Of a stretch of DNA of 22,883 bases, positions 2,577-18,677 are shown piece after piece (the stretch's first letter is position 1; every line of letters begins with the position of its first letter). A program made the translations under genes and the position numbers. Source of the DNA: a virus; IMG/VR virus record IMGVR_UViG_3300015372_000199, positions 1 to 22,883 of that record; one strand, written 5' to 3'. The notes beneath the pieces are model-generated. The model worked only from the letters and a program-made list of their open reading frames with translations, was not told the DNA's origin and made no database searches.

Positions 2577-3181
2577 GAGCCAAAAAAGGATCCCAGTTTG
2601 AACGGAAGATCTGCCGGACACTATCCCGCTGGTGGAGCCTAGGAGGGTGGCCGGAGGAGGAAGTGAGGGACGATATCTTCTGGAGGTCATCCCAGTCCGG
2701 CGGCCGGGCAACCTGGCGGGCGAGGAAAGGATTGAAGACAGCCAACTCCTACGGGGACGTGGCGGCAATGGACCCGATCGGCCGGCCGTTGCTCAAGATG
2801 TTCACCATCGAGCTCAAGCGGGGAGACTCCCACGGTCATCCGCTCGACCTGCTCGACGCCCGGCCGACGGATACCCAACGCAAATGGGAGAAGACGTTGA
2901 AGCAAACGGTGGACTCCATGACGGATGCGGGTTCACTTGGCTGGCTCCTCATTCACCAACGGGACTTTCGGGAGTCCGTGGTTTACATCGACTGGCCGAC
3001 GGCCAAGCGGTTCAACCTCCTGAAGATCTGTCCCACCTTCGTTCTCTTCAAGGTGCGGGTGAACGAGGGGAAAGGAAAGAGGTGGTGGAGGCTCTACTAC
3101 GGGTGCCTCCGGCTCGAGGATTTTCTCCGGGTAATGAAGCCCGCGGAGATAATAGAACAAATAGAAAGGATCACAGAATGA
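2573..3181 (+). CDS. PD-(D/E)XK nuclease, possible Holliday-junction resolvase
   Basis: The 202-residue product starts with KGSQFERKICRTLSRWW, an amphipathic helix carrying Glu10, typical of the first motif of PD-(D/E)XK enzymes. Next come a Ser/Gly-rich turn (SSQSGGRATW) and the catalytic core: GDVAAM with Asp62, then MFTIELKRG with Glu80 and Lys82. The arrangement E...D...ExK is that of archaeal-type Hjc resolvases and related phage nucleases. The second half has several Trp-rich strands and no further motif. Position after a recombinase and flap exonuclease supports a recombination role, such as cutting branched DNA before packaging. A restriction or DNA-end-processing nuclease is an alternative. 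Both ends overlap neighbours by ATGA. Confidence 0.75.
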   Translation: MRAKKGSQFERKICRTLSRWWSLGGWPEEEVRDDIFWRSSQSGGRATWRARKGLKTANSYGDVAAMDPIGRPLLKMFTIELKRGDSHGHPLDLLDARPTDTQRKWEKTLKQTVDSMTDAGSLGWLLIHQRDFRESVVYIDWPTAKRFNLLKICPTFVLFKVRVNEGKGKRWWRLYYGCLRLEDFLRVMKPAEIIEQIERITE

Positions 3182-3885
3182 AAAAAACGCTAGTGTTGGT
3201 TTCCGGCGGGATGGACTCAGCGGTATTACTCCGGGAGATGCGCCAGTGCTCCGGAGTGGTCCGGGCGATCTCCTTCAACTACGGTCAGCGCCACGGGATT
3301 GAGTTGGAGTATGCCGCCCGGCATTGCACCGAGCTTGGGGTGAGGCATGAGATCGTGGAGATGTCCTTCCTCAAACACCTCCTCCCCGGCTCCTCCCAGA
3401 CTGACGCCTCTGTCCCGGTGCCGGCCGGGCACTACTCGGAGGAGTCCATGAAGGCGACGGTCGTCCCCAATCGGAATATGATCATGCTGTCGATCGCGGC
3501 CGGCCACGCCCTTGCTAACGACATCGAGTCGGTGGCCTACGCTGCGCACTACGGGGATCATGCCATCTATCCCGATTGCCGCCCGGAGTTCGTGGGCGCC
3601 CTGAACGGGGCCCTCGCCCTCTGCGACTGGAAGAAGGTCCGGGTGGAGACTCCGTTCGTGAACTTGTCGAAGGCGGACATCCTGAAGGCCGGGATCGCCT
3701 TGAAGGTGGATTGGAAGGAAACGTATTCCTGTTACACCGGGCAGACCCTCCAATGCGGACGGTGCGGGACTTGCATCGAGCGGCGGGAGGCGTTCCACTT
3801 GGCCGGGGTGGAGGATCCGACGGAATACAACCCGGCGACGGCCCCGATGCTCGGTGATTTGGTTCTTAAAGGTTTCAAACTCTAA
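3178..3885 (+). CDS. queC: 7-cyano-7-deazaguanine (preQ0) synthase
   Basis: At 235 residues the protein is close to E. coli QueC (231). The PP-loop ATP-pyrophosphatase motif LVSGGMDSAVLL lies at residues 7-18. SFNYGQRH (32-39) and VVPNRNMIMLSIAAGHA (95-111) are the characteristic QueC motifs. The zinc site is complete: Cys185, Cys193, Cys196 and Cys199. QueC converts 7-carboxy-7-deazaguanine and ammonia to preQ0 using ATP. In phages this feeds 7-deazaguanine modification of genomic DNA, which protects against restriction enzymes, or tRNA queuosine synthesis. No QueD, QueE, FolE, DpdA or transglycosylase is in the window, so the pathway must be completed outside it or by the host. The ATG overlaps the upstream stop (ATGA), making queC the last large gene of this operon. 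Confidence 0.93.
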   Translation: MKKTLVLVSGGMDSAVLLREMRQCSGVVRAISFNYGQRHGIELEYAARHCTELGVRHEIVEMSFLKHLLPGSSQTDASVPVPAGHYSEESMKATVVPNRNMIMLSIAAGHALANDIESVAYAAHYGDHAIYPDCRPEFVGALNGALALCDWKKVRVETPFVNLSKADILKAGIALKVDWKETYSCYTGQTLQCGRCGTCIERREAFHLAGVEDPTEYNPATAPMLGDLVLKGFKL

Positions 3886-3965: not shown

Positions 3966-4154
3966 GTGGGCCAGGAAAAAAAGAGCTGAAATGTCAAAAA
4001 AGATGTGGTGTTAAATCCTAGGTGGGTGATATTGGTTGCAAGTAAGGGCGGTCCGGATGGATCGTCCGAGCAGAACCGGGGCGGGTTAGTACCCGCTATA
4101 TCACGGAGAAGAGTCGCTCCGGTTCGCAAACCCGGTGGCCCTCGTAGGGTCACC
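3954..4154 (+). other. Inverted-repeat-rich leader, possible structured RNA or switch
   Basis: This lies in the 285-nt gap between queC and the gene at 4171. I see a hairpin GCGGGT(4081-4086)/ACCCGC(4091-4096) with a TAGT loop, a hairpin CGGAG(4104-4108)/CTCCG(4117-4121), and a 9-bp hairpin 4134-4142/4146-4154 (one G-T pair, loop CGT). The segment GGTGATAT (4025-4032) can pair with ATATCACC (3954-3961), and its GTGATAT part can pair with ATATCAC (4098-4104), giving two mutually exclusive folds. The last hairpin ends 16 nt before the ATG at 4171, which lacks a Shine-Dalgarno sequence. No known riboswitch consensus, including preQ1 types, was recognised. Pairing was judged by eye only. Confidence 0.4.
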
Positions 4155-4170
4155 AAGCACAAATTAGTTT

Positions 4171-5016
4171 ATGAGCAAGATGAAGAGCAAGGAAGTCCTG
4201 AAGGAAGTCCGCCGTTCCAGGGACCCGGCAGAGTTCGGCGTCCGGCTGCGGGTCGGGGACATCATCCGTATGGGAAACACCGAGCACTTCGTTTGGTTCC
4301 TAAACGATAGCCGGGCGGCGGTGATCCCGCTCCGGAACACAACGTACACCTTCAAGACATTGGAGACGGACGTAACGTTCCAGGCGGACCCGGCGAGTGT
4401 AAACATCAGTCCAAACAGCGAGGTCCCGATCCTCAAACGGCTCGGCCGGGAGGGTTTGATCGCGTTCCTCGCACAACGAACAGAAGAAAGGAAGGCAGTT
4501 ATGGCTAAGAACAAAGAAGAGAAGAACGGTAAGTCGGAGAAGGAAGAGGGCCCGAAGCTCGGCGGCCTCGGTGGATTCCTGGGGCACCCCGTCACCGGAG
4601 TGATCCGGGCCATGGGCGTGGCCGGGTGGTCCTTCAAGGAAGTCCGCTACGTGTTCGACAAAGCGAAAATCCAGGTCGCCGATAACACGATCCGGATCCA
4701 GCTACACAAGGGCAAGTCCAAAGCCCAGGAACCCGCGGACGTGAGCAAGAAAGAGCTCGCGCAGCTCCGACCGGACCCGGCCCTCTTCGCCAAGGAAGAG
4801 AAAGCCGACAAGAAGGGCAAGGGCGCCAAGGACGCGAAGGCGGCCGGGAAGTCCAAGCCCGCGAAGGCGGAAGCGGACGACGACGGGGACGACGACGAGG
4901 GTGACGAACCCGCCCCGGCGAAGAAGCCCAAGGTCAAACCCGCCGCCAAGCCTGCGAAGGAAGAGGCGGAACCCGCGGACGAGAAGGAAGAGGACGACGA
5001 AGCGGTGGAAGTGTAA
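4171..5016 (+). CDS. Lys/Asp/Glu-rich protein with a module shared with the MuF protein
   Basis: The 281-residue product has three parts. Residues 1-110 form a folded N-terminal domain (VGDIIRMGNTEHFVWFLNDS and following beta strands). Residues 139-181 form a small helical module ending in KIQVADNTIRIQLHKGK. Residues 185-281 are a low-complexity tail of Lys/Ala/Pro blocks alternating with Asp/Glu blocks. The module is about 50% identical (22 of 44 positions by my alignment) to residues 341-384 of the MuF-type head protein at 10794-13058. The ATG at 4171 has no clear Shine-Dalgarno, while an internal in-frame ATG at 4501 has a strong one. A strong terminator follows, so the gene may be its own transcript together with its leader. 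The function is unknown; a nucleic-acid-binding or structural accessory protein is possible. Confidence 0.8.
   Translation: MSKMKSKEVLKEVRRSRDPAEFGVRLRVGDIIRMGNTEHFVWFLNDSRAAVIPLRNTTYTFKTLETDVTFQADPASVNISPNSEVPILKRLGREGLIAFLAQRTEERKAVMAKNKEEKNGKSEKEEGPKLGGLGGFLGHPVTGVIRAMGVAGWSFKEVRYVFDKAKIQVADNTIRIQLHKGKSKAQEPADVSKKELAQLRPDPALFAKEEKADKKGKGAKDAKAAGKSKPAKAEADDDGDDDEGDEPAPAKKPKVKPAAKPAKEEAEPADEKEEDDEAVEV
4487..4503 (+). promoter_or_regulatory. Internal Shine-Dalgarno and in-frame ATG inside the 4171 gene
   Basis: AAAGGAAGG at 4487-4495 lies 5 nt before an in-frame ATG at 4501. That is a better initiation site than the annotated start at 4171. Translation from it would give a 171-residue protein beginning MAKNKEEK and containing only the shared helical module and charged tail. 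The sequence right after the ATG is A-rich in an otherwise GC-rich gene, as at true starts elsewhere in this phage. Confidence 0.45.
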
Positions 5017-5965: not shown

Positions 5966-7441
5966 ATGCCCCTAGCTCCTTGGCAGCAAAAGCAACCTCC
6001 CATCCCGGCCCGGTGGACCGAAACCAAGATGGTGGCGTCCATCTGCCGGGAGTCCTTCTTCGAGTTCATCAAGGAGTTCTGGGACACGATCATCCAGGAC
6101 CCGCCGATCCTCAATTGGCACATCGAATACTTGGCCAACGAGCTCCAACAAGTGGCCGAGCGGGTTTTCAAAGGGGAGCCAAAGGAATACGACCTCATAG
6201 TCAACATCTCCCCGGCCTCTACCAAGTCCACCATCTTCTCCCAAATGTTCCCCGCTTGGGCTTGGACCCGCAAGCCGGACGCCAAGTTCATTTGCGCCTC
6301 CTACGGCCAAGTCCTCGCCCTCCGGGATGCGATCCGCTCACGGGATCTTGTGGAATCCGAAAAGTACAAGAAGTGTTTCCCCGGCATCGGACTCCGCGAA
6401 GATCAAAATACGAAAGGCCTTTACATTAACACTAAGGGAGGATCCCGACTGTCGGTAGGGATAGGCGGGGCGGCCGCCGGCCTCCACGGCCACTTCTTAA
6501 TTGTGGACGACCCGATCAACCCGGAGCAGGCCTACAGCGAGGCGGACTTGAAGGTCGCTAATCGGTGGATGACAACGACACTGCCGACCAGAAAGATTGA
6601 CAAGAAGGTGACAGTAACGATCCTGGTACAACAACGTCTGCACCAGGCCGACCCCTCGGGTGAACAACTTGAAAAGAGCAAAGGAGTAGGAATCCGGCAT
6701 ATATGCCTACCGGGGGAATTGGGGAATGATCCGGACGCTGTCGTCGTCTCCCCGCCGGAGTTACGGGACAGGTATGTGGACGGCCTATTCGACCCGATCC
6801 GCCTAGACCGGGAGTCCTTAAAAGCCCTCGAGTCGGAACTAGGAATCTACGGTTACAGCTCCCAAATCCTCCAGACCCCGGTTCCCTTGGCCGGGGCCAT
6901 GTTTATGGTAAACAAGTTTCAGTTCTGCGACCAGCCCCCTCGTAGGATAGTCCGCACCGTCCGCAGCTGGGATAAGGCGGGGACGGAAGGGGCGGGGAAG
7001 TACACCGTCGGCCTCCTGATGGCCGAGGACTCCGCCGGCCAATGGGGTATTCTAGACGTCATTCGGGATAGGTGGGGAGCAACCCGGAGAGAAGAAGAGA
7101 TCCGGTCTGCCGCCGAGATGGATGGCGACGAGGTCCCGGTCGTCCTCGAAATAGAGGGAGGATCCGGCGGAAAGGAATCCGGGGAGTCCACCACGAAGAA
7201 CCTCAAAGGTTACCGGGTCCATGCCTTCCATCCCACCGGAGATAAGGTCAGCCGGGCTTATCCCTTCGCCTCCCAAGTCGGGTCGGGGAACGTCTGGGTC
7301 CTCAACCGGGATTGGACCCGGGACTACGTGGAGGAGCTCCGCTTCTTCCCCAATTCCAAATACTCGGACCAAGTGGACGCCTCGAGCGGGGCCTTCAACT
7401 TCCTAGCCAAGAAGAGGAAGAAAGCCGGGGCCTTATGGTAG
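5966..7441 (+). CDS. Terminase large subunit (ATPase and nuclease)
   Basis: The 491-residue length is typical for TerL. The ATPase domain shows a degenerate Walker A, SPASTKST (82-89), a Walker B, HFLIVDDP (176-183), and a coupling-type motif TILVQQRLH (218-226). The RNase-H-fold nuclease domain shows VRSWDKAGT with Asp336, VVLEIEGGSGGKES with Glu395/Glu397, and SDQVDASSGAFNFL with Asp468/Asp471. TerL cuts concatemeric DNA and pumps it into the prohead through the portal. The gene begins 6 nt after the small-subunit stop with a weak ribosome site, so coupling is likely. The Walker A form with Ala-Ser-Thr in place of Gly is common in TerL proteins. Confidence 0.95.
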   Translation: MPLAPWQQKQPPIPARWTETKMVASICRESFFEFIKEFWDTIIQDPPILNWHIEYLANELQQVAERVFKGEPKEYDLIVNISPASTKSTIFSQMFPAWAWTRKPDAKFICASYGQVLALRDAIRSRDLVESEKYKKCFPGIGLREDQNTKGLYINTKGGSRLSVGIGGAAAGLHGHFLIVDDPINPEQAYSEADLKVANRWMTTTLPTRKIDKKVTVTILVQQRLHQADPSGEQLEKSKGVGIRHICLPGELGNDPDAVVVSPPELRDRYVDGLFDPIRLDRESLKALESELGIYGYSSQILQTPVPLAGAMFMVNKFQFCDQPPRRIVRTVRSWDKAGTEGAGKYTVGLLMAEDSAGQWGILDVIRDRWGATRREEEIRSAAEMDGDEVPVVLEIEGGSGGKESGESTTKNLKGYRVHAFHPTGDKVSRAYPFASQVGSGNVWVLNRDWTRDYVEELRFFPNSKYSDQVDASSGAFNFLAKKRKKAGALW

Positions 7442-7739: not shown

Positions 7740-7939
7740 ACTCTTGCTGTGGATGTAAACATTGGAAGCCTTCCCGGGAGGGCGACGTAGGCCGGTGTCT
7801 TAGGATCACCGCCGTCGGCGCCACGTCGGACAACAAGGCGGTCGTAATCGAAGGAGACATCGGCGATTCCCACCTCGTCACCGCGGCGGATTTTAGTTGC
7901 TGCCTGTTCGAGGCGGCCCCAGTAGTCAAACCTATATGA
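7736..7939 (+). CDS. Small Cys-rich, probably zinc-binding protein (67 aa)
   Basis: The N-terminus reads [12 protein letters not shown] and is followed by VGRCLRI, then near the end DFSCCLFE. The CxxC...W...GxC...C.FE layout is found in small phage proteins that are thought to bind zinc. Cys4, Cys5, Cys7, Cys21, Cys55 and Cys56 are available as ligands. The middle is beta-rich ([10 protein letters not shown]). It overlaps both neighbours by ATGA and is therefore coupled to the thymidylate-synthase-like gene. No function is established. Confidence 0.7.
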
Positions 7940-8775
7940 AACAATACCTAGACCTACTCCATCACGTAATCGCCCACGGGAAGGACCGGGAAGACCGGAC
8001 CGGCGTGGGAACGCGGGCCGTGTTCGGTTACCAATTCCGCCACCACCTACAGGACGGCTTCCCGTTGCTCACGACTAAGAAGATCCACACCAAGTCCATC
8101 ATCGTGGAGCTGCTGTGGTTCCTCCGGGGCGACACCAACATCAAGTTCCTCCACGACTTCGGTGTCACGATTTGGGACGAGTGGGCCGACAAAGACGGGG
8201 ACCTGGGCCCGGTGTATGGCAAGCAGTGGAGACATTGGGAGAAGTTCGACAACATGGGCGAACACTTCATGTATGAGCGAAACGAGATCGACCAGATAGC
8301 CAACCTCGTTTCCGACCTCGTGAAGAACCCGTTCAGCCGGCGCCACATCGTCTCCGCCTGGAACCCAGTGGACGTGCCCAGGATGAAGCTGCCTCCCTGC
8401 CACACCCTTTGGCAATGTCAGGTGAGTGAGGGTTTCCTGAACCTCCACCTCTACGCCCGCAGTATCGACTCGTTCCTCGGCCTCCCGTTCAACATCGCCT
8501 CCTATGCCTTCCTGACAATGATGCTGGCGCAGGTTACCGGGCGGACCGCCGCCAACCTCCGACGGAAGATCAAACGGCTACCCGACGAACCACATGGGCA
8601 GAACTTCAGCCAGCCCCGCGGGATGATGGCGATCCGGACTATGAAGGAGGTCGCGGAGATAATGGGTATTGACAAGTCACGGGTCCACCAGTTGGAGCGG
8701 GTGGCTTTTTGGAAGATACGGAAAGGGTTAAAGGAGTTTGCAACCTACTTAGCTGAACGATACGGAAAGGGATAA
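7936..8775 (+). CDS. Thymidylate synthase (ThyA-type) core fused to a sigma-region-4-like helix-turn-helix
   Basis: Residues 1-202 are clear Thy[11 protein letters not shown] (Arg21), [17 protein letters not shown] (Glu58), WDEWAD (Trp80, Trp83), [16 protein letters not shown] (Arg135, Arg136), PPCHTLWQ with the catalytic Cys155, and [19 protein letters not shown] (Asp178, Asn186). The homology then stops. The segment expected next in ThyA, with the conserved HxY nucleotide-binding motif (His207/Tyr209 in E. coli) and the folate-closing C-terminus, is absent. Instead residues about 233-275 read [20 protein letters not shown] followed by [14 protein letters not shown], close to sigma-70 region 4. 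The frame has no stop between the halves. The protein may be inactive as a TS, a dUMP-binding regulator, or the product of a deletion. It is coupled by ATGA to the gene before it and followed 1 nt later by a DUF1599 gene. Confidence 0.85.
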
Positions 8776-8776
8776 C

Positions 8777-9115
8777 ATGAACACACAACTACAACAATCG
8801 GCAATCGACATTAGGAAGGCCTGCGACGAGATCGCGGACATGCTCATCAAGAAGAACGAGGCCTACGGGAACTCGGCCCTCGACCCGACGAGGATCATGT
8901 CCAAGCTCGATGCGGTGGAAGGCATTAAGGTCCGCATCGACGACAAGCTGAACCGGATCATGCAGGGGAACCTCACCTTTAACGAGGACACCGAGCTCGA
9001 CTTGACGGGCTACTTCATCCTCCTCCGGGTGGCTCGGTGGCGGGAGAAGAGGCGGGCCGAAGCCTTGGAGGCTCGTAGGAACGATGCGGCGACGAAGGAG
9101 GGCAACCAATTCTAA
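8777..9115 (+). CDS. DUF1599 / nucleotide modification associated domain 1-like protein
   Basis: The 112-residue product carries KKNEAYGNSALDPTRIMSKL (residues 25-44), then IKVRIDDKLNRI (50-61) and EDTELDLTGYFILL (70-83). This K(N)xxYGNS...RIDDKLxRI...ED...DLxGYxxLL pattern is that of the DUF1599 (Nmad1) family in phages, which is linked by genomic context to modified nucleotides. The acidic and His/Asp pattern recalls all-alpha NTP pyrophosphohydrolases, but the activity is not settled. It starts 1 nt after the ThyA-like gene and has a purine-rich GGAAAGGG ribosome site. Together the two suggest thymidine or modified-pyrimidine metabolism. Confidence 0.78.
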   Translation: MNTQLQQSAIDIRKACDEIADMLIKKNEAYGNSALDPTRIMSKLDAVEGIKVRIDDKLNRIMQGNLTFNEDTELDLTGYFILLRVARWREKRRAEALEARRNDAATKEGNQF

Positions 9116-9118
9116 CTT

Positions 9119-9247
9119 TGCCACCGCCGGGCCAATCCCCAGGATAGGTTGGTTGCTCCGTCGTGTCATACGACTAAGTTCGACGGAGCGGCTACTACGG
9201 ACTATCCTGGCCTGGCTCCCTCCTAGTGGAGGGGAACGGCGGTGGCA
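9119..9247 (+). ncRNA. Putative structured RNA, closed three-way junction
   Basis: Four helices fit together without conflict. A perfect 11-bp closing stem pairs 9119-9129 with 9237-9247. Inside it, 9139-9147 (CCAGGATAG) pairs perfectly with 9202-9210. Within that arm, 9155-9163 (GCTCCGTCG) pairs perfectly with 9181-9189. A separate hairpin pairs 9217-9223 with 9228-9234 (loop TAGT, one G-T pair). A T-rich run follows (9248-9266). The element fills most of the 180-nt gap between the DUF1599 gene and the portal gene. The inner arm has an alternative hairpin, 9160-9164 with 9170-9174. No known RNA family was recognised. It could be a non-coding RNA, a leader, a processing site or a DNA-level element. 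Confidence 0.5.
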
Positions 9248-9295
9248 TTCTTTTCCTTTTGCTTTCCGTCCCGGTGGGGCCGTAAAGTAGGAACC

Positions 9296-10792
9296 GTGAA
9301 AACAGTTTCTACGACTAAATCGGCGGCGGGAATGCCGGTGTTCAATAGACTACTGACAACCAATTTCCTGATGGAGCGGCAGCTCTGGCTCCGGAGGCAA
9401 TTGGATCCTCGCCGGAACATTGACCAGGAATGCGGACACCCGGAGTGTGTCGATACCCTCGAGTTCAAACGGGCTTTCCTCCGGGGTGATATCGCCAAGC
9501 GGGTCGTCACCCTCCTCCCGGAAGAGAGCTGGTCGGACACCCCGGATGTGTATGAGACGGAGGATGAAACCGAAACCGAGTTTGAGGAAGCGTGGGGCGA
9601 GCTGGAGGATCAACTCCAGGTTCTCTCCATGTTGGAGCGGGTAGATGTCCTGAGCGGGATCGGCCACTACGGGATCCTCCTCCTCGGCCTAGGGGACGGT
9701 GCCCGGCTGGATCAACCCGCACCGGGCGTCAACCCGCTGACCGGGGAGAAGACGGAAGGAAGCCGGGAACAGGAGCTCCTCTTCCTCCGGGCCTTCGACG
9801 AGTCGCTGGTTTGCATCAAAGAGTTGGAGACGAACACGGCCAGCCCCCGGTTCGGCCACCCTACCCTCTACGAAATCACCTTCGAGGACATTACGAGCAC
9901 CGGGGCCTCGTCTATCACCAGCAAACAGTTGATCCATTGGTCCCGGGTGATTCACGTGGCCGACAACCGGATGTGTAGCGAGATCATAGGAGTGCCGAGG
10001 ATGGAGGTCGTGTTCAACCGCCTCCTCGACATCAAGAAGATCGCCGGCGGGAGCGGGGAGATGTTCTGGAAAGGCGGGTTCCCTGGCATCTCGTTGGAAT
10101 CCTCCCCGGGCGTGGACGAGACGGTGGAGTTCGATGCGGCCGCGACCAAGCAACAACTCGAGTCCTACATGAACGGCCTCCAGCGTTATCTTGCCACCGT
10201 CGGGATGAGTGCCAAGTCTTTGACTACTCAGGTCGCCGATCCCGGCCCGCACCTGGAAGTCCAACTCAAGCTCATTGCCGTGGCGATGGGCGTTCCGTGG
10301 CGGGTATTCATCGGGTCGGAGGCGGCACAGCTGGCTTCCGAGCAGGATTCCAAGAGCTGGAACCGACGGTTGAACCGGAGGCGATGCAAGTATTTGAATC
10401 CCTTTGTCATTGTGCCGACCATCGACCGGCTCGTCGCCCTCGGTGTCCTTCCTGAGCCGGAGGAGCTATGTGTGGACTGGCCGGATCTCAACACCCTCGG
10501 GGATAAGGACAAGGCCGAGGTCGCCCAGAAGAAGTCCGACGCCCTCTCCAAGTACATCCAATCGGGGTCTGATATTATCGTCCCGCCGTTCCACTACCTG
10601 ACGTTGATCCTAGGGCTCGAGGAGGAGGAAGCCCGGTCCATCATCGACGAGGTGACGAGCGGGCTTGCAGAGGAGGACGGGGTAGCGGCGGCCTTACAGG
10701 ATCGCCGGGACCAACAAGCCGCGGCCGCTCAAGCCCAAGCAACGGCCGCGGCCGGCCGGAACGGGGCGGGGGCGCCCGCGGCCCGGGAGTAG
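9296..10792 (+). CDS. Phage portal protein (DUF1073-like)
   Basis: About 498 residues, a typical portal length. The N-terminal part contains LRGDIAKRVVTLLPEESWSD, a pattern in portals of the DUF1073 type, with GIGHYGILLLGLGDG after it. The C-terminal core contains LKLIAVAMGVPWRVFIGSEA followed by QLASEQDSKSWNRRL, the characteristic segment before the wing/crown helices. The last 50 residues are an Ala/Gln-rich helix. The portal forms the dodecameric ring at one vertex through which TerL pumps DNA. The position between terminase and MuF supports the call. The start is uncertain: GTG 9296 (GGA 3 nt upstream) or ATG 9332; I chose 9296. Confidence 0.88.
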   Translation: MKTVSTTKSAAGMPVFNRLLTTNFLMERQLWLRRQLDPRRNIDQECGHPECVDTLEFKRAFLRGDIAKRVVTLLPEESWSDTPDVYETEDETETEFEEAWGELEDQLQVLSMLERVDVLSGIGHYGILLLGLGDGARLDQPAPGVNPLTGEKTEGSREQELLFLRAFDESLVCIKELETNTASPRFGHPTLYEITFEDITSTGASSITSKQLIHWSRVIHVADNRMCSEIIGVPRMEVVFNRLLDIKKIAGGSGEMFWKGGFPGISLESSPGVDETVEFDAAATKQQLESYMNGLQRYLATVGMSAKSLTTQVADPGPHLEVQLKLIAVAMGVPWRVFIGSEAAQLASEQDSKSWNRRLNRRRCKYLNPFVIVPTIDRLVALGVLPEPEELCVDWPDLNTLGDKDKAEVAQKKSDALSKYIQSGSDIIVPPFHYLTLILGLEEEEARSIIDEVTSGLAEEDGVAAALQDRRDQQAAAAQAQATAAAGRNGAGAPAARE

Positions 10793-13072: not shown

Positions 13073-13330
13073 ATGCTCATAGTGGAATACGAAGATTTGA
13101 CGGCGAGTTGGGACGCTCAGGGCTTCGAGTGGAAGTCCGACGAGGAGGTGTTTGCTGACGCCCTCAACGACAATCTACCCAAGTTCCCGGTAGAGGCCCA
13201 CCTCCTCGTCGGAGGGGTGGAAGGACTTGCGTTGGAGGGAGCCAAGAAGGTGTTCGGGGGTGATTTGAAGGTCATCCTGTTTGATCCGCCGTTGCCGGAC
13301 CCGCCGGAGGAAGGAACCGACGACACATGA
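13073..13330 (+). CDS. Small acidic protein of unknown function (85 aa)
   Basis: I chose the ATG at 13073, 15 nt after the MuF stop, with an AGGA about 6 nt upstream. An in-frame codon at 12974 would overlap the MuF gene heavily and is unlikely. The product begins with a strand MLIVEYEDLTASWD, has GVEGLALEGAKKVFGG in the middle and ends with LFDPPLPDPPEEG. It is acidic and has no recognised motif, signal peptide or membrane segment. Its stop overlaps the fucosyltransferase-like start by ATGA. It may belong to the head module or to the glycan island; I cannot tell which. Confidence 0.65.
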   Translation: MLIVEYEDLTASWDAQGFEWKSDEEVFADALNDNLPKFPVEAHLLVGGVEGLALEGAKKVFGGDLKVILFDPPLPDPPEEGTDDT

Positions 13331-14103
13331 GCATAGGAATGCCCACCTACGTCATCCCGTTCACCGTCGGGCGGATGGGGAACTACCTGTTCCAAGTGGC
13401 GGCGACTATCGGATACGCGAAACGCCACGGGTTAGAGTTCACGGTCCCGGCCCATCCTTACCAGCCCCGTCGCGACCCGGTGTACTTAGGTCACCTCGTC
13501 CACCCTAAGTTCGACGCGATGATGCCGTCGATGACGGTGAAGGAACAGTTCTTCCACTATCACGAGATCCCTTTCCAAGAGGAGTGGAAGGACGGCCGGA
13601 CTATCATCCTCGAGGGTTACTGGCAGTCGGAGAAGTATTTCAAAGAGTTCCGGGCGGACATCCTCAAGCTGTTCGGGTTTGAGTGGACTTCCATGCCGGG
13701 GACGGTCTCGGTCCACGTCCGCCGGGGCGACTACCTCAAGTGGAGGCAAAAGCACCCTCCCGTAGGGGCGGAGTGGATGGAGAAGGCGATGGAACAATTC
13801 CCCGGCCACCGGTTCATCTTCTTCTCGGATGATATCGGATGGTGCCGGAAGGTGTTCGGGAAGCGGAAGGATTGTTCCTTCTCCATGGGACACGACGAGG
13901 TGCGGGACCTCGTGGAGATGTCCTGGTGCGAGCATCAAATCTGCTCCGCCTCCACCTACTCTTGGTGGGGCGCTTGGCTGAACCAAAACCCGAACAAGCG
14001 GGTCGTCATACCCCGGCTTTGGTTCGTCCCGGGTTGGGGCGGACATAACACGAAGGATGTAGTCCCGGAAGGATGGATCCGAATGAATAATGGAGGAGCA
14101 TGA
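13327..14103 (+). CDS. Alpha-1,2-fucosyltransferase-like glycosyltransferase (GT11)
   Basis: The 258-residue product is slightly shorter than typical bacterial GT11 enzymes (about 280-300). The N-terminal GRMGNYLFQVAATIGYAKRH (residues 15-34) matches the GT11 signature GxLGNQxFQxA. SVHVRRGDYL (128-137) is the GDP-fucose binding motif HxRRGDY. FIFFSDDIGWCRK (163-175) and CSASTYSWWGAWLN (206-219) are the remaining family motifs. GT11 enzymes transfer fucose from GDP-fucose in alpha-1,2 linkage to galactose. No fucose-synthesis gene is in the window, so GDP-fucose, or a related sugar, would come from the host. It is the first gene of a glycan-modification island and overlaps the genes on both sides. 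Confidence 0.88.
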   Translation: MSIGMPTYVIPFTVGRMGNYLFQVAATIGYAKRHGLEFTVPAHPYQPRRDPVYLGHLVHPKFDAMMPSMTVKEQFFHYHEIPFQEEWKDGRTIILEGYWQSEKYFKEFRADILKLFGFEWTSMPGTVSVHVRRGDYLKWRQKHPPVGAEWMEKAMEQFPGHRFIFFSDDIGWCRKVFGKRKDCSFSMGHDEVRDLVEMSWCEHQICSASTYSWWGAWLNQNPNKRVVIPRLWFVPGWGGHNTKDVVPEGWIRMNNGGA

Positions 14104-14150
14104 TCCAAGCCAAGCTGAGACAGGTGAATGAGGAGTTGAAGGCGATATGA
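14100..14150 (+). CDS. Tiny 16-codon ORF bridging two glycosyltransferase genes
   Basis: A strong ribosome site (GGAGGAG at 14092-14098) precedes an ATG at 14100 that overlaps the upstream TGA (ATGA). The ORF encodes MIQAKLRQVNEELKAI, an amphipathic helix, and ends in a TGA that overlaps the ATG of the next gene (ATGA again). Fully linked starts at both ends suggest it is translated. It may serve mainly to carry ribosomes across a 46-nt gap, or be a real micropeptide. Confidence 0.5.
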   Translation: MIQAKLRQVNEELKAI

Positions 14151-14872
14151 AGATCACGGCCTTCTGTCCCACCCTCAACCGGCCGGAGCTCCTCGGCCGG
14201 CTCATCAAATGCTTCGAGAATCAAACCTACGAGGACCGGGAACTCATCATCCTCGACGACGGGGGCCAATACGAGAACCAGAAGGGCGACCGTTGGGAGG
14301 TCGTCTCTGTCCCGCGGCGCTTCTCCTCCTTAGGGGAGAAGAACAATGCCGCGATCGCCCTCGCCTCCTTCGATACTTGGGCCCTCGCCAAGGCCGACGA
14401 TGACGACATCTATATGCCGTGGTGGTTGGAGTCCTTGGCCGATGCACTCAAGAGGGCCGAGCTCGTCCAACCCAAGTATGCCATGGATTTTGTCAACGGG
14501 GAGTGGGTCCAATCCGAGACATTCAGCCGTAAGACGGGACGCTTCGCCTATCACGGTTGTTGGGCATTCCGGAGGAGCCTCGTGGAGAAACACGGAGGCT
14601 ACCGGCCGGAGTATGCCGGGGACGACCAAGAGATGGATCGCCGGCTTCGTAGCGTAGGGGTGGCCTCCATGGGAATTGACATCAAACGGTTCAAGCCTTT
14701 CTACTGGTACAACCGTCCGCTACCCGGTAGGATCAGCTCCCGCGGCGGATCCAAGCAGGCCTACATGGACACCGGGCGGAAGGTTCCCTATGTGGGGAAG
14801 GTTCCGGAGTGGACCGGAGAACAGGTCTGGACGTGGGCGATCCCAACGAAGATAATTGAGCGACAGTGGTAA
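14147..14872 (+). CDS. Family 2 glycosyltransferase
   Basis: The 241-residue product starts with the GT-A nucleotide-binding fold: ITAFCPTLNRPELLGRLIKC, then FENQTYEDRELIILDDGG with Asp37/Asp38. The catalytic DXD-type motif is KADDDDIYMPWWLE (84-87 region). GCWAFRRSL and YAGDDQEMDRRL (around 165-176) match the acceptor-side motif of GT2 enzymes, where an acidic ED/DD residue acts as base. GT2 enzymes are inverting transferases that build polysaccharides and glycan side chains. The donor and acceptor cannot be read. The start is fixed by the ATGA overlap with the 16-codon ORF. It belongs to the glycan island. Confidence 0.88.
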   Translation: MKITAFCPTLNRPELLGRLIKCFENQTYEDRELIILDDGGQYENQKGDRWEVVSVPRRFSSLGEKNNAAIALASFDTWALAKADDDDIYMPWWLESLADALKRAELVQPKYAMDFVNGEWVQSETFSRKTGRFAYHGCWAFRRSLVEKHGGYRPEYAGDDQEMDRRLRSVGVASMGIDIKRFKPFYWYNRPLPGRISSRGGSKQAYMDTGRKVPYVGKVPEWTGEQVWTWAIPTKIIERQW

Positions 14873-14892
14873 ACCATAACAATGAAGGAACT

Positions 14893-15276
14893 ATGTTAAA
14901 AACACTCATAGCGTTTGCCGTGATAATCGCGGCACCGCTACTCGCAGCCCAAGCCCCGCCGTTGAGGCGGGTCCTCCTCACCTGGACCAACCCTAACAGA
15001 ACCAACCCGGTGGACGATCCAAACATCCTCTACCGGGTCTGGCACACGAACCAGCTTGCCAACATCACCAACCAAGCGACTACCAATTGGACGTTACTGA
15101 CTACCCTCCCCAACGTCCCGTCGGCGACCAACTTGGGGGTATTCCTCATGGTCCCGCAGGACGTGAACTTCTTTGCCGTATCAGCCTCAAATTTCTACGA
15201 GGTTTTCTCTACAAACGCCCGGACGCCCGCTTCGCCATCCGGCGTGAGTCAACTCTTAATCACCCTCACCAACTAA
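14893..15276 (+). CDS. Secreted small beta-type protein with signal peptide (127 aa)
   Basis: The ATG at 14893 has a GAAGGAAC ribosome site. An in-frame GTG at 14866 is less likely because it would overlap the GT2 gene and bury the signal peptide. The N-terminus is MLKTLIAFAVIIAAPLLAAQ, a standard signal peptide with cleavage probably after residue 21. The mature part is Asn/Thr-rich: RRVLLTWTNPNRTN, then ILYRVWHTNQLANITNQ and NFFAVSASNFYEVFS. The strand pattern recalls a fibronectin type III-like fold. It should be exported from the host cell. A secreted protein inside a phage glycan island could alter the cell surface, for example to exclude other phages, but no family is recognised. Confidence 0.75.
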   Translation: MLKTLIAFAVIIAAPLLAAQAPPLRRVLLTWTNPNRTNPVDDPNILYRVWHTNQLANITNQATTNWTLLTTLPNVPSATNLGVFLMVPQDVNFFAVSASNFYEVFSTNARTPASPSGVSQLLITLTN

Positions 15277-15303
15277 GCAAAGAAGCCTTACTCCATATTC
15301 AAC

Positions 15304-15329
15304 GGCTGGTTGTCGAGCGACTGCCAGCC
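15304..15329 (+). other. Hairpin in the short gap before a methyltransferase gene
   Basis: GGCTGG (15304-15309) pairs with CCAGCC (15324-15329), ending 11 nt before the ATG at 15341. That start lacks a Shine-Dalgarno sequence, and no alternative in-frame start exists upstream. The hairpin could mark the start or weakly terminate, but there is no T-run. Confidence 0.35.
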
Positions 15330-15340
15330 CCATCACTTCC

Positions 15341-15886
15341 ATGATCAGAACCAGAAACGACTTCCCACAACTCCTGGTAAGCACCGGGCGGACCAAGTAC
15401 TCTGTCGAGATCGGGGTGGCCGAAGGCTACTTCAGCTGGCACCTTTTGGATCACTGGCCGGGAACCCACTACCTAGTGGACCCGTGGAAGAGATTAAGCG
15501 TTCCGGGGTATAGTGTCCACGGGGACGAGGACCAGGAAGCCCGTTACAAGAGGATCCTCAAGAAGGCAAACACTTACAAGGGACGGGCGATTGTGGAACG
15601 GATGACCTCCGAGAAGGCGGCACCCTACTTCGTGGACAACTTCTTCGACTTCGTGTACATCGACGCCAACCACACCTTCGAGGAGGTCGTCAAGGACATC
15701 AACCTTTGGTGGCCTAAGGTCCGGGCCGGCGGGATCCTGGCCGGTCACGACTACTTGCAAGGCCTCAAAGACGGGGTGATCTACGGTGTGAAGGCGGCGG
15801 TCGATATGTTTGCCATGCCTGACCGGCTGAAGGTCGGGGTGACTCAGGAGGAGGATTACAAGAGCTGGTGGATCGAAAAGCCATGA
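15341..15886 (+). CDS. Class I SAM-dependent methyltransferase (Methyltransf_24-like)
   Basis: The 181-residue product has SVEIGVAEGYFSWHLLDHW (21-39), the glycine-rich SAM-binding motif I, then THYLVDPWK (Asp47, ribose contact). FDFVYIDANHTFEEVVKDIN (102-121) and RAGGILAGHDY (128-138) are motifs of the Methyltransf_24 group, whose members methylate sugars or small molecules. The 'IDANHTFE...D...W...GGxxxGHDY' set is well preserved. The position between glycosyltransferases suggests methylation of the same glycan, capping or decorating it. The start is ATG 15341 without a clear ribosome site; the 3' end overlaps the next gene by ATGA. Confidence 0.85.
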   Translation: MIRTRNDFPQLLVSTGRTKYSVEIGVAEGYFSWHLLDHWPGTHYLVDPWKRLSVPGYSVHGDEDQEARYKRILKKANTYKGRAIVERMTSEKAAPYFVDNFFDFVYIDANHTFEEVVKDINLWWPKVRAGGILAGHDYLQGLKDGVIYGVKAAVDMFAMPDRLKVGVTQEEDYKSWWIEKP

Positions 15887-16554
15887 GCAAACTACTACTC
15901 ACCATCGCCACCTCCGAGATTAGGGTGTACTGCCAAGAGTTCCTAGAGAACCAAGCCGTCTATGCCCGGTCCAATAGCTATGAGTATCGAATCGTGTCGG
16001 AGAAACATTGGAAGGATCTCCACCCTAGCTTCTCCAAGGTGTATGAAATTGATCGGGCCTTTGAGGAGGGTTGGGAGGTTGTCCTTTGGGCTGATGCTGA
16101 TGTGCTCTTTATGGATCAAACTGTGGATCTCTCCAAGCTACTACACCCCGGCATCTTTGTGGCAGCTTACCAGCAGGGTAATTGGACGGCCTGGAAGTAC
16201 CTCTGCGCGGGCCTCACAGTATGGAAGAACTGCAAACAGTCCCGGGCGTTTGTTACCGAGTGGAGGGAACGATGCGAAATCGGAAGCCCTTCCGTCCGAC
16301 CCAACGAGCGGGTTATTATCACGCATCACCCATGGGAACAGTGGTATTTCGACGAGCTTATACGGGAAACCAACTATGCTGGTGTTCGAGGATGCACGGC
16401 GGCAGAGATAGGATGCTTCTGCCCGGAGATTTGGTCGGACGGGACTTTGTGGGTTCCGGGTATGCCAACCATCCACATGTCGGGGCCGGCCTCTTGGGAG
16501 AAGAGGGCCCAAGTCCTCCCGCTCTACCTAGACCAAGTGAAATATGCTAATTGA
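15883..16554 (+). CDS. Probable glycosyltransferase with DXD motif (GT34/GT-A-like)
   Basis: I chose the ATG at 15883 for its ATGA overlap with the methyltransferase; an in-frame GTG at 15868 is possible. The 223-residue product has SKVYEIDRAFEEGWEVVLWA followed by DADVLFMD (Asp71-Asp73), the DXD metal-nucleotide motif in a 'WxDADxLFxD' setting. That setting is typical of galactosyl- and mannosyltransferases of the GMA12/MNN10 (GT34) type. CAGLTVWKNCKQSRAFVTEW and HHPWEQWYFDEL follow, and the C-terminal IHMSGP is consistent with the His after the acceptor site. It is part of the glycan island. The exact sugar is unknown. Confidence 0.78.
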   Translation: MSKLLLTIATSEIRVYCQEFLENQAVYARSNSYEYRIVSEKHWKDLHPSFSKVYEIDRAFEEGWEVVLWADADVLFMDQTVDLSKLLHPGIFVAAYQQGNWTAWKYLCAGLTVWKNCKQSRAFVTEWRERCEIGSPSVRPNERVIITHHPWEQWYFDELIRETNYAGVRGCTAAEIGCFCPEIWSDGTLWVPGMPTIHMSGPASWEKRAQVLPLYLDQVKYAN

Positions 16555-17200
16555 CTTCAAAGAAGTGTTTAGGCGCTACAAGATCCAAACCCGCGGAGTC
16601 CTCCACCTTGGGGCGAACACCGGGCAGGAGGCGGAGATCTACGAGAAGCTCGGCATCCAGCGGGTAATTTGGGTGGAGGCTCTTGAGGATGTCCACGCCC
16701 GGCTCGTCGAGAATGTGGCGAAGTACCCCGGACATACAGCCCTCTGTGCTTGCCTCAGCGACAAGGACGGCGACAACGTAGTCTTCAACCGGGCTAATAA
16801 CGAATCGCAATCCTCCTCCTTCCTCGAGCTAGGGACTCATGCGAAGGAGTATCCCGGCACCGTGTACACCGAGCGGATCGGGATGCGGACGGTGCGGGCG
16901 GATACCCTATTGAAGTATCACGACCTTCGAGTAGGGCCGGGCTGGTTCCTCAACGTGGACTTGCAAGGGGCGGAGCTCCTGGCACTCAAGGGGCTGGGCG
17001 ATTTGCTCTGGTGCTTCTCCTACGCCTACATCGAGGTGAACATCCGGGAGCTCTATAAGGGTTGCCCGATGGTGGAGGAGATCGACGCCTACCTCGAGCC
17101 GTTCCTCCTCGTCGGCCGGGAGTTGAAGTTGATGCCGCAGGGTTGGGGAGATAAACTGTACACACGCATCGCACATACGGTTCCACAGGATCCATTATGA
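16544..17200 (+). CDS. FkbM-family methyltransferase
   Basis: The 218-residue product has GVLHLGANTGQEAEIYEKLG (18-37), SAM motif I, then VIWVEALEDVHARL with Glu45. LNVDLQGAELLALKGLG (136-152) with Asp139, Gly142 and Glu144 is the FkbM signature (xxxDxxGxExxxLxG). FkbM-type enzymes O-methylate sugars and other small acceptors and are frequent next to glycosyltransferases. The gene overlaps the previous one by 11 nt and the next by ATGA. With the Methyltransf_24-like gene it gives the island two methyltransferases of different families. Confidence 0.9.
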   Translation: MLIDFKEVFRRYKIQTRGVLHLGANTGQEAEIYEKLGIQRVIWVEALEDVHARLVENVAKYPGHTALCACLSDKDGDNVVFNRANNESQSSSFLELGTHAKEYPGTVYTERIGMRTVRADTLLKYHDLRVGPGWFLNVDLQGAELLALKGLGDLLWCFSYAYIEVNIRELYKGCPMVEEIDAYLEPFLLVGRELKLMPQGWGDKLYTRIAHTVPQDPL

Positions 17201-17859
17201 CATCCTATCACGATACTATGAGATATCACATCATTCGATACGACACGATCAAACACGACTTCGTCCGGCTGATCAGGAACCTACTCGGGGTGTCCAACCT
17301 CGAGGACTTGGACGAGAAGCACGACGAGCTGTTCAAAGTAGGGGCGGACTCCTGCACCTCCTTCCACCAGAAATTCTACGGCAAGTATCACGACGGTTGG
17401 TGGGAGATGGAATGCCTCTACGAGGACTTTATTCGGGACGTCATGATCCCGATTTGGAAACCTCCGTTCCTCTATCAGAAGTTCCCAACCTTCCGTGTCC
17501 ACCTTCGGGGCAACCTAGCGGTCGGGGCCTTCCACAACGACGCCCAGTTTGGGCACCCTACCGGGGAGATGAACTACATCATCCCGCTCACCAACTCCTC
17601 CGGGACGGCGAGTGTTTGGGTAGAGTCCGAGCCGGGGAAGGAAGACTATCAGCCGATGGAGCTGCGGGTCGGGAACCTGATAGAGTTCAACGGGAACGTC
17701 CTGACCCACGGGAACAAGCTGAACGATACGGGTAAGACGAGGGTGAGCATGGACTACCGGATCCTCCCGATGGCGTACTATCGGCCCCACGACTTCAAGG
17801 CTACCATGACGCGGAAGACACCGCTCCTCGAGGGCGAGTATTACAAGAGGATGGAATGA
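17197..17859 (+). CDS. StrG-like 2-oxoglutarate/Fe(II)-dependent oxygenase
   Basis: The 220-residue product carries an iron-binding triad: AFHNDAQFGHPTGEMNYIIP with His113 and Asp115, then NVLTHGNKLNDTGKTRVSMD with His171 and Arg182 (2-oxoglutarate contact). The wording 'FHxDxxxxHPxGExNxxxPLT...ES' followed by 'HGNxxNxTGxTRVSxDxR' resembles StrG of streptomycin biosynthesis and similar proteins found in glycan clusters. Such enzymes hydroxylate or oxidise small molecules or sugars. The acceptor here is unknown; the neighbouring transferases suggest a sugar or glycolipid. The start forms an ATGA overlap. Family assignment comes from motif memory, not a search. Confidence 0.75.
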   Translation: MTSYHDTMRYHIIRYDTIKHDFVRLIRNLLGVSNLEDLDEKHDELFKVGADSCTSFHQKFYGKYHDGWWEMECLYEDFIRDVMIPIWKPPFLYQKFPTFRVHLRGNLAVGAFHNDAQFGHPTGEMNYIIPLTNSSGTASVWVESEPGKEDYQPMELRVGNLIEFNGNVLTHGNKLNDTGKTRVSMDYRILPMAYYRPHDFKATMTRKTPLLEGEYYKRME

Positions 17860-18677
17860 TCCTAACGACTATTACCACGGTGTGGAGACGGGAAGAGATG
17901 CTCCGGTTGTGGCTGGCTAACCTCCGCTACGCGACCCGGCCGGACATCTTTCACCTCGTCTATTTCATAGGTGAACTTCCCCCGGCTTGGTGGGCTGAAG
18001 AGGCCAAGGGAATCAACATCAAGGTGATGCTCCGGTTCGAGCCTCCCGGTGGATCCATCGGGTATTACCACAACCTAGGGGCGGAGGCCGCCCCGTCGGA
18101 GTGGATCATGAAGCTGGATGTGGACGCATTCCCTAACCAGTACTACTTCAGGAGCCTCCTCCCGATCCTCGACTCGGCCGGCCCGCGGGAGTGGTTTAAC
18201 GGGGGTATGTTCTACGTCTCCAAGTTCTACTCCGTTTGCCTGCTCGACAGCCCCTTAATTGGCCGGGCCTACGAGCAAGTCATGGGCAACCGGAGGACCT
18301 ACGCCGCGATGCCCTACTTAGGGCCGGCCGCGACCAACTTCATCTGTCGGCGGAAAGACTACCTCGCCCTAGGAGGATGCAGCCCCGGCTTCCACGGATA
18401 CGGGTGGGAGGATTACCAGCAGATCTATATGTTGGAGAAGTATCAGCGGGGCGAGGATCCGTTGCCGGGCGCCCTCACTCTAGCCAACGTCACCCGGAGG
18501 TGTCGGGACGAGATCAGCCGTCCCAAAGCCCAGCTGTTGTTGGATCGGGACCCGTGGCTGTGCTTACTCCACCATTGGCACCCGGCGGCCAAAGGGACCA
18601 GTATGGATCAGAACCGGAAAGTGCTTTACGATTACATACTCACCAGCAAAGGAAACCATGAACCTATCCAACGATGA
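17856..18677 (+). CDS. Glycosyltransferase, GT-A fold with GT27-like C-terminal motif
   Basis: The 273-residue product begins with a short GT-A strand (LTTITTVWRREEMLRLWLAN) and has EWIMKLDVDAFPN, placing a DVD metal motif at residues 88-90. GGMFYVSKF and ATNFICRRKDYLALGG follow. FHGYGWEDYQQIYMLEKY (179-196) matches the 'W/GWGxED' motif of the galactosyltransferase C-terminal domain (Glyco_transf_7C), seen in GT27 and chondroitin-polymerase-type enzymes. HHWHP near the C-terminus may complete the metal site. It probably transfers a UDP-linked sugar. It overlaps the oxygenase gene by ATGA and the next gene by 20 nt. Confidence 0.85.
   Translation: MILTTITTVWRREEMLRLWLANLRYATRPDIFHLVYFIGELPPAWWAEEAKGINIKVMLRFEPPGGSIGYYHNLGAEAAPSEWIMKLDVDAFPNQYYFRSLLPILDSAGPREWFNGGMFYVSKFYSVCLLDSPLIGRAYEQVMGNRRTYAAMPYLGPAATNFICRRKDYLALGGCSPGFHGYGWEDYQQIYMLEKYQRGEDPLPGALTLANVTRRCRDEISRPKAQLLLDRDPWLCLLHHWHPAAKGTSMDQNRKVLYDYILTSKGNHEPIQR

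Follow-up and report, generated by a model that had tools for sequence, protein, structure and literature searches.

A covarying three-way-junction element, a candidate structured RNA, upstream of the portal gene in one lineage of phages

Background

The functions of structured non-coding RNAs in tailed phages are known in few cases, and the gap in front of a phage portal gene raises the question of whether the nested inverted repeats within it fold, are kept by selection and act as such an RNA. Starting from an original prediction made from the DNA letters alone, we identify here an element with strong covariation support that belongs to no known family and has a fixed place between the terminase-side block and the portal gene. 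As one lineage carries it while sister phages lack it, it lends itself to a clean comparison of what a phage gains from such RNAs.

The locus and its gene neighborhood

The 22.9-kb viral record analysed here (22,883 nt, the whole of which we call the window) is identical over 11.8 kb to IMGVR_UViG_3300000440_000303 and carries all its major genes on the plus strand (Table 1). Between the phrog_1485 gene and the portal gene lies a non-coding gap from 9116 to 9295, in which the element begins 3 nt after the phrog_1485 stop codon. We place the portal start at the GTG at 9296, and not at the mechanical ORF start at 9242, because of the homologous start in a second phage and the context of the start codon. 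This second phage, L003 (IMGVR_UViG_3300038441_001671), comes from a separate metagenome; its portal is 83% identical to that of the window and its gene order is the same, namely TerL, variable genes, phrog_1485, gap, portal and head protein, with 55% identity over 84 aa between the two phrog_1485 proteins. A host search with the portal as query, covering 388 and 297 genomes from two phyla, returned no match.

Table 1. Genes and sequence features of the window that bear on the element, in listed order
Feature	Positions	Strand	Evidence or remark
RecA-like, 5'-3' exonuclease, QueC-like, TerS-like protein	window	+	start of listed gene order
TerL	5966-7441	+	Terminase_6C nuclease domain; TerS-like partner present
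Thymidylate synthase homolog	7897-8775	+	between TerL and PHROG 1485 gene
PHROG 1485 family gene, upstream neighbor	8777..9115	+	phrog_1485 E 2.9e-16
Candidate structured RNA element, whole, three-way junction	9119..9247	+	MFE -78.4 kcal/mol, z -7.1; covariance with L003:4150-4266
P1 closing stem 5' strand, UGCCACCGCCG	9119..9129	+	11 exact pairs with 9237..9247
P2 5' strand, GCCA	9131..9134	+	4 pairs with 9213-9216
P3 5' strand, CCAGGAUAG	9139..9147	+	9 exact pairs with 9202-9210
P4 5' strand, GCUCCGUCG	9155..9163	+	9 exact pairs with 9181-9189
P4 3' strand, CGACGGAGC	9181..9189	+	9 exact pairs with 9155-9163
Invariant motif UACGGACU	9196..9203	+	3' side of P4/P3 internal loop; last two bases in P3
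P3 3' strand, CUAUCCUGG	9202..9210	+	9 exact pairs with 9139-9147
P2 3' strand, UGGC	9213..9216	+	pairs with 9131-9134
P5 hairpin, CCCUCC-UAGU-GGAGGG	9218..9233	+	6 pairs, 9218-9223/9228-9233
P1 closing stem 3' strand, CGGCGGUGGCA	9237..9247	+	11 exact pairs with 9119..9129
Portal promoter-like site, TTGCTT-N18-TAAAGT	9259..9288	+	7 nt before start codon
Portal protein gene, GTG start	9296..10792	+	phrog_146 E 6e-59; Phage_portal_3 E 1.1e-24
Mu F-like head protein, glycosyltransferases, DUF2213 protein, encapsulin-like capsid protein		+	after portal, in listed gene order

Predicted fold of the element

The exact 11-bp closing stem and the two exact nested 9-bp stems that the original prediction described within 129 nt of non-coding sequence are all present where it had placed them. 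The separate 7-bp hairpin corresponds to P5, which has six Watson-Crick pairs and one possible U.G, and a further helix, P2, had been overlooked. P1, P2 and P5 form the three-way junction, from which P2, P3 and P4 continue as a long arm; in the window the fold lengthens P1/P2 and P4 by G.U pairs. Its free energy compares with -50.2 +/- 4.0 kcal/mol for dinucleotide shuffles, none of which (0/200) folds equally well, so that the possibility of equally stable shuffled sequences, which the prediction itself had raised, was not upheld. Since the segment at 9101 comes second lowest on the plus strand in a coarse 130-nt sliding scan with 25 shuffles (z -4.6), we regard folding energy alone as suggestive and not decisive. 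Other segments of the same scan with z near -4.5 are what might favor a chance fold of GC-rich intergenic DNA, a reading that now has next to no probability, being refuted by the independent phage described below, in which nine pairs are compensated and a single one is broken.

Nested palindromes in general fold well on both strands and as single-stranded DNA. This element is no exception, with z -6.1 for the other strand of the segment and z -6.6 for the segment as single-stranded DNA; because both of these fold well, the strand of the element is not fixed by folding alone.

Compensatory changes in an independent phage

The homologous gap of L003 holds a counterpart of 117 nt (4150-4266; z -6.3), which when folded unaided forms P1 (11 bp), P2 (6 bp), P4 (10 bp) and P5 (6 bp). 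We compared the two elements in a structure alignment, in which P2-P4 were aligned by hand to the structure and P1 and P5 are also recovered by plain MAFFT, giving 38 comparable pairs with substitutions at 21 of the 76 paired positions. Nine of these pairs have exchanged both bases without loss of pairing, one has gone from G-C to G.U and one is broken: the compensatory changes for which the original prediction had proposed to look are therefore present, at nine double-sided changes against a single broken pair, in a comparison of two independent members only. P1 has one compensated pair (its third, C-G in the window and U-A in L003), P2 has two of four, P4 has three together with the G.U pair, and P5, which reads UCCUUC-UUGU-GAAGGA in L003, has two. 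P3 accounts for the remaining compensated pair and for the broken one; its pair probability in L003 is only 0-0.12, and it is the least certain helix, strong in the window and weak in L003. For P1, P2, P4 and P5 the pair probability is at least 0.93 in both phages; two innermost pairs fall below this, that of P1 (0.54 in either phage) and that of P5 in L003 (0.51).

Two controls bear on these counts. When the pairing partners are slid by 1-3 columns, 0-1 compensated pairs are left. Among 100,000 simulations with 21 random substitutions each, none matches the observation: on average 14 pairs are broken, there are never fewer than five broken, and at most six are compensated. As no simulation with equal substitutions comes near the observed compensation, we conclude that the stems have been kept by selection. 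A covariance model (R1) scores the L003 element at 97.5 bits, a value to be read in light of R1 having been built from these same two sequences. At the internal loop of the long arm, UACGGACU is identical in L003 at all eight positions, while the length of the surrounding loop varies, and the P4 apical loop is unconserved. The latter bears on the alternative hairpin noted for the inner arm (GUCGU/ACGAC), which can be drawn from bases of P4 and its apical loop; P4 itself is kept by covariation. The RNA region as a whole is 74% identical between the two phages, and the 11-22 nt directly downstream are at the level of shuffled sequence. It is this conservation in L003, and not the folding energy, that provides the strong evidence for a structured RNA, and that the three-way-junction fold is conserved we take as nearly certain.

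The plus strand folds better than the minus strand in both phages and the flanking genes are also on it; the plus strand is likely to be that of the element, which in our assessment very probably acts as RNA. The same data bear on whether the conserved object might instead be a functional DNA site, such as a single-stranded hairpin or cruciform serving recombination, replication or the initiation of packaging. The segment does fold as single-stranded DNA and on both strands, and compensation is mostly from Watson-Crick to Watson-Crick, as DNA would also require. Against this, one L003 stem pair is G.U on the plus strand and the window fold is extended by such pairs, the strands are unequal in both phages, no integrase was found beside the element, and DNA recognition sites usually keep their sequence and are not re-paired with new letters. 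We therefore rate a DNA site as unlikely.

Distribution in phages and genomes

Strict DNA patterns matched no record other than that of the window and L003. Loose homolog patterns gave at least 113-120 matches per scan of IMG/VR and genome contigs; among the approximately 80 listed matches per scan to which the covariance model was applied, the highest score apart from self-matches was 22 bits, which is the chance level. The model run over the loci of portal relatives, the pattern matches and 26 whole viral records recovered the window's record and L003 alone, as did a scan of TerL relatives for the element, and a locus search for phrog_1485 relatives recovered just the window's own record. 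No further copy emerged when phages and plasmids were searched by BLASTN with the element, or from one pattern scan of a collection of 84,980 prokaryote genomes. Two scans for portal relatives yielded no record between 62 and 83% portal identity. In the next-closest phages (L004, L006, L007 and L008, with 59-62% portal identity) the upstream stop and the portal start are approximately 30-45 nt apart, which leaves no room for the element, and R1 has no match in the records of the relatives at about 60% portal identity, several of which are fragments. From its two-member distribution we conclude that the element was either gained in, or lost outside, one lineage; it is lineage-specific, and dispensable in the wider phage group.

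Several other inverted repeats were considered as homologs or as further elements. In L011, a relative with 58% identity, a 120-nt segment of the portal gap (1720-1839) has an exact 11-bp closing stem; we rejected it as its interior differs, it folds better on the other strand (z -4.4, against -3.1 on the plus strand), it overlaps the -35 element and it has no R1 match. Inverted repeats in the gap of L347 and others appear to be coding or fold weakly.

The perfect terminal inverted repeat of 11 bp, and the resemblance to a clean insertion between stop codon and portal -35 on comparison with L004 and L006, would suit a small MITE-like mobile element. Such an element is most improbable: the sequence is present as a single copy in the window record, the searches used found no other copy in IMG/VR, the 84,980 genomes, phages or plasmids, no target-site duplication is seen, and the inner stems are re-paired by compensation, which would not be maintained in a dead insert.

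Transcript boundaries and a proposed role

The original prediction allowed for a role in expression. The element ends 11 nt upstream of a promoter-like site of the portal gene, which follows a pattern, TTGC-N17/18-TAnnnT with a start codon within 5-8 nt, that recurs in the window, L003 and most of the 21 relatives examined. It is seen across a broad phage group, in the portal gaps of L003, L004, L332, L333, L008, L011, L338, L339 and L345 (the last with TTGT for TTGC), and matches only three times on the plus strand of the whole window. To judge by the spacing of promoter and start codon, the portal mRNA is probably leaderless. Because the portal has its own conserved promoter pattern between it and the RNA, we reject the RNA as a portal 5' leader. 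A search directly upstream of the RNA for a promoter of its own saw none.

At its downstream edge, the T-rich run noted after the closing stem is present in the window and missing in L003, where the sequence after the stem is AAUUCCUCCACAG, without a U-run; a terminator scan was empty in both phages. A conserved intrinsic terminator is rejected on these two grounds. The element does resemble intrinsic terminators and 3'-UTR stability hairpins: its GC-rich stem follows a stop codon and precedes a promoter, and in the window a T-run is present; it differs in that its 11-bp stem closes a folded body of approximately 107 nt and in that the T-run is unconserved. These observations define the main rival to the role proposed below, a purely cis-acting operon boundary, in which a large 3'-UTR structure ahead of the portal promoter terminates the terminase-side transcript or insulates it and keeps exonucleases from its 3' end, with no separate RNA. 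The place of the element between stop codon and -35, its stable end-closing stem and the U-rich run of the window all suit a boundary. The missing U-run and empty terminator scan do not, the relatives cope without any structure in the gap, and the invariant internal-loop motif and the junction would be superfluous for a simple boundary; we therefore consider this reading possible and yet doubtful.

The best explanation, to which we assign a probability of roughly 0.4, is a structured RNA with which the upstream transcript ends and which is kept in discrete, protein-bound form. The terminase-side transcript, read from the plus strand, would carry the element at its 3' end, directly behind the phrog_1485 stop, and the element would end just short of the independent, probably leaderless portal promoter. 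By pairing both ends, the 11-bp stem should protect the folded body, which would persist or be trimmed out as a discrete RNA, some 120-130 nt long, and the conserved junction together with the invariant UACGGACU loop would be the likely recognition site for a protein.

Comparison with known structured RNAs

No family of Rfam 15 reaches its gathering threshold on the element, and ARAGORN detects no tRNA or tmRNA at it. Given the same architecture in the homologous gap of L003 and the nine compensated pairs, the description of the element as a candidate new structured RNA stands.

In phage packaging RNAs of the phi29 type (pRNA) a long arm is followed by a short hairpin arm. The element shares this architecture, being a tailed-phage RNA candidate of approximately 120 nt with a closing helix (P1), a three-way junction, a long arm with an internal loop (P2-P3-P4) and then a short one (P5). 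A pRNA-like function would seat the closing helix on the motor ATPase and interlock the arms of neighbors in the portal ring. Size, arm order and the adjacency of the portal and terminase genes are compatible with this, as is the complementarity of the P4 loop ACUA to the P5 loop UAGU in the window. The loops of L003, however, have no 4-nt complementarity; the window encodes an ordinary TerL with a Terminase_6C nuclease domain and a TerS-like partner, and not a phi29-type ATPase; and the element sits between phrog_1485 and the portal and is absent in near relatives, with the relatives at about 60% portal identity giving no model match (several being fragmentary records). Nor is there a match to pRNA RF00044 at its gathering score or at E up to 5, which by itself is weak evidence because pRNAs share only about 12% sequence similarity among themselves (PMC5340915). 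A pRNA-like RNA is thus quite improbable. For the packaging role of the original prediction in general we find no positive evidence and some against it, in that the relatives at about 60% portal identity lack the RNA in the gap. This, and the absence of the T-run in L003, makes an essential packaging role or an intrinsic terminator unlikely.

A broader form of trans action is likewise unlikely in our view: the element would represent a new class of trans-acting phage RNA, marked by the three-way junction and the invariant UACGGACU loop, that serves virion assembly or packaging or acts on a host RNA-binding protein. By analogy, the assembly or packaging version may be an independently evolved, lineage-specific counterpart of pRNA beside the portal gene.

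As a structured cis RNA within a phage transcript, the putRNA of HK022 is a further point of comparison, and a nascent-RNA antiterminator of its kind would act on RNA polymerase entering the structural operon from upstream. The position of the element, a structured fold in the path of the operon just before the long block of structural genes, would suit this. The putRNAs, however, are found close to early promoters and consist of two stem-loops in approximately 70 nt (PMC9378689), whereas the element forms a larger three-way junction of 117-129 nt where a gene block ends, and a local promoter serves the structural genes; antitermination is accordingly very improbable.

Besides the metagenome-derived set considered next, similar motif collections exist. 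The candidate structured RNAs found near phage genes in metagenomes (PMC8040213) are likewise orphan conserved intergenic folds, drawn from comparative analysis only; the likeness is one of description, and the main text of that study does not mention portal, capsid or terminase genes.

Other features of the window

An exact 15-bp inverted repeat (13136/13213) downstream of the head gene was rejected as a structured element, since it lies inside a small coding gene and its gap folds no better than shuffles. The gene (13074-13328; counterpart L003 8060-8327) is a conserved ORF that starts with MLIV, and the repeat structure of the window is not conserved. From 13327 to 18677, a sugar-modifying block with several glycosyltransferases and an FkbM methyltransferase is set inside the structural operon, flanked by the Mu F-like head gene and the DUF2213 gene.

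Upstream of the element, L003 is without an ORF sized like the thymidylate synthase homolog between TerL and phrog_1485. In the window, the C-terminus of this homolog (residues 247-276) exceeds the Pfam cut-off for Sigma70 region 4, which makes for an odd fusion. The QueC-like protein (2632-3885) has a long N-terminal extension, its QueC part comprising residues 185-390 of 417 aa. Together, the QueC-like protein and the ThyA homolog hint at modified phage DNA.
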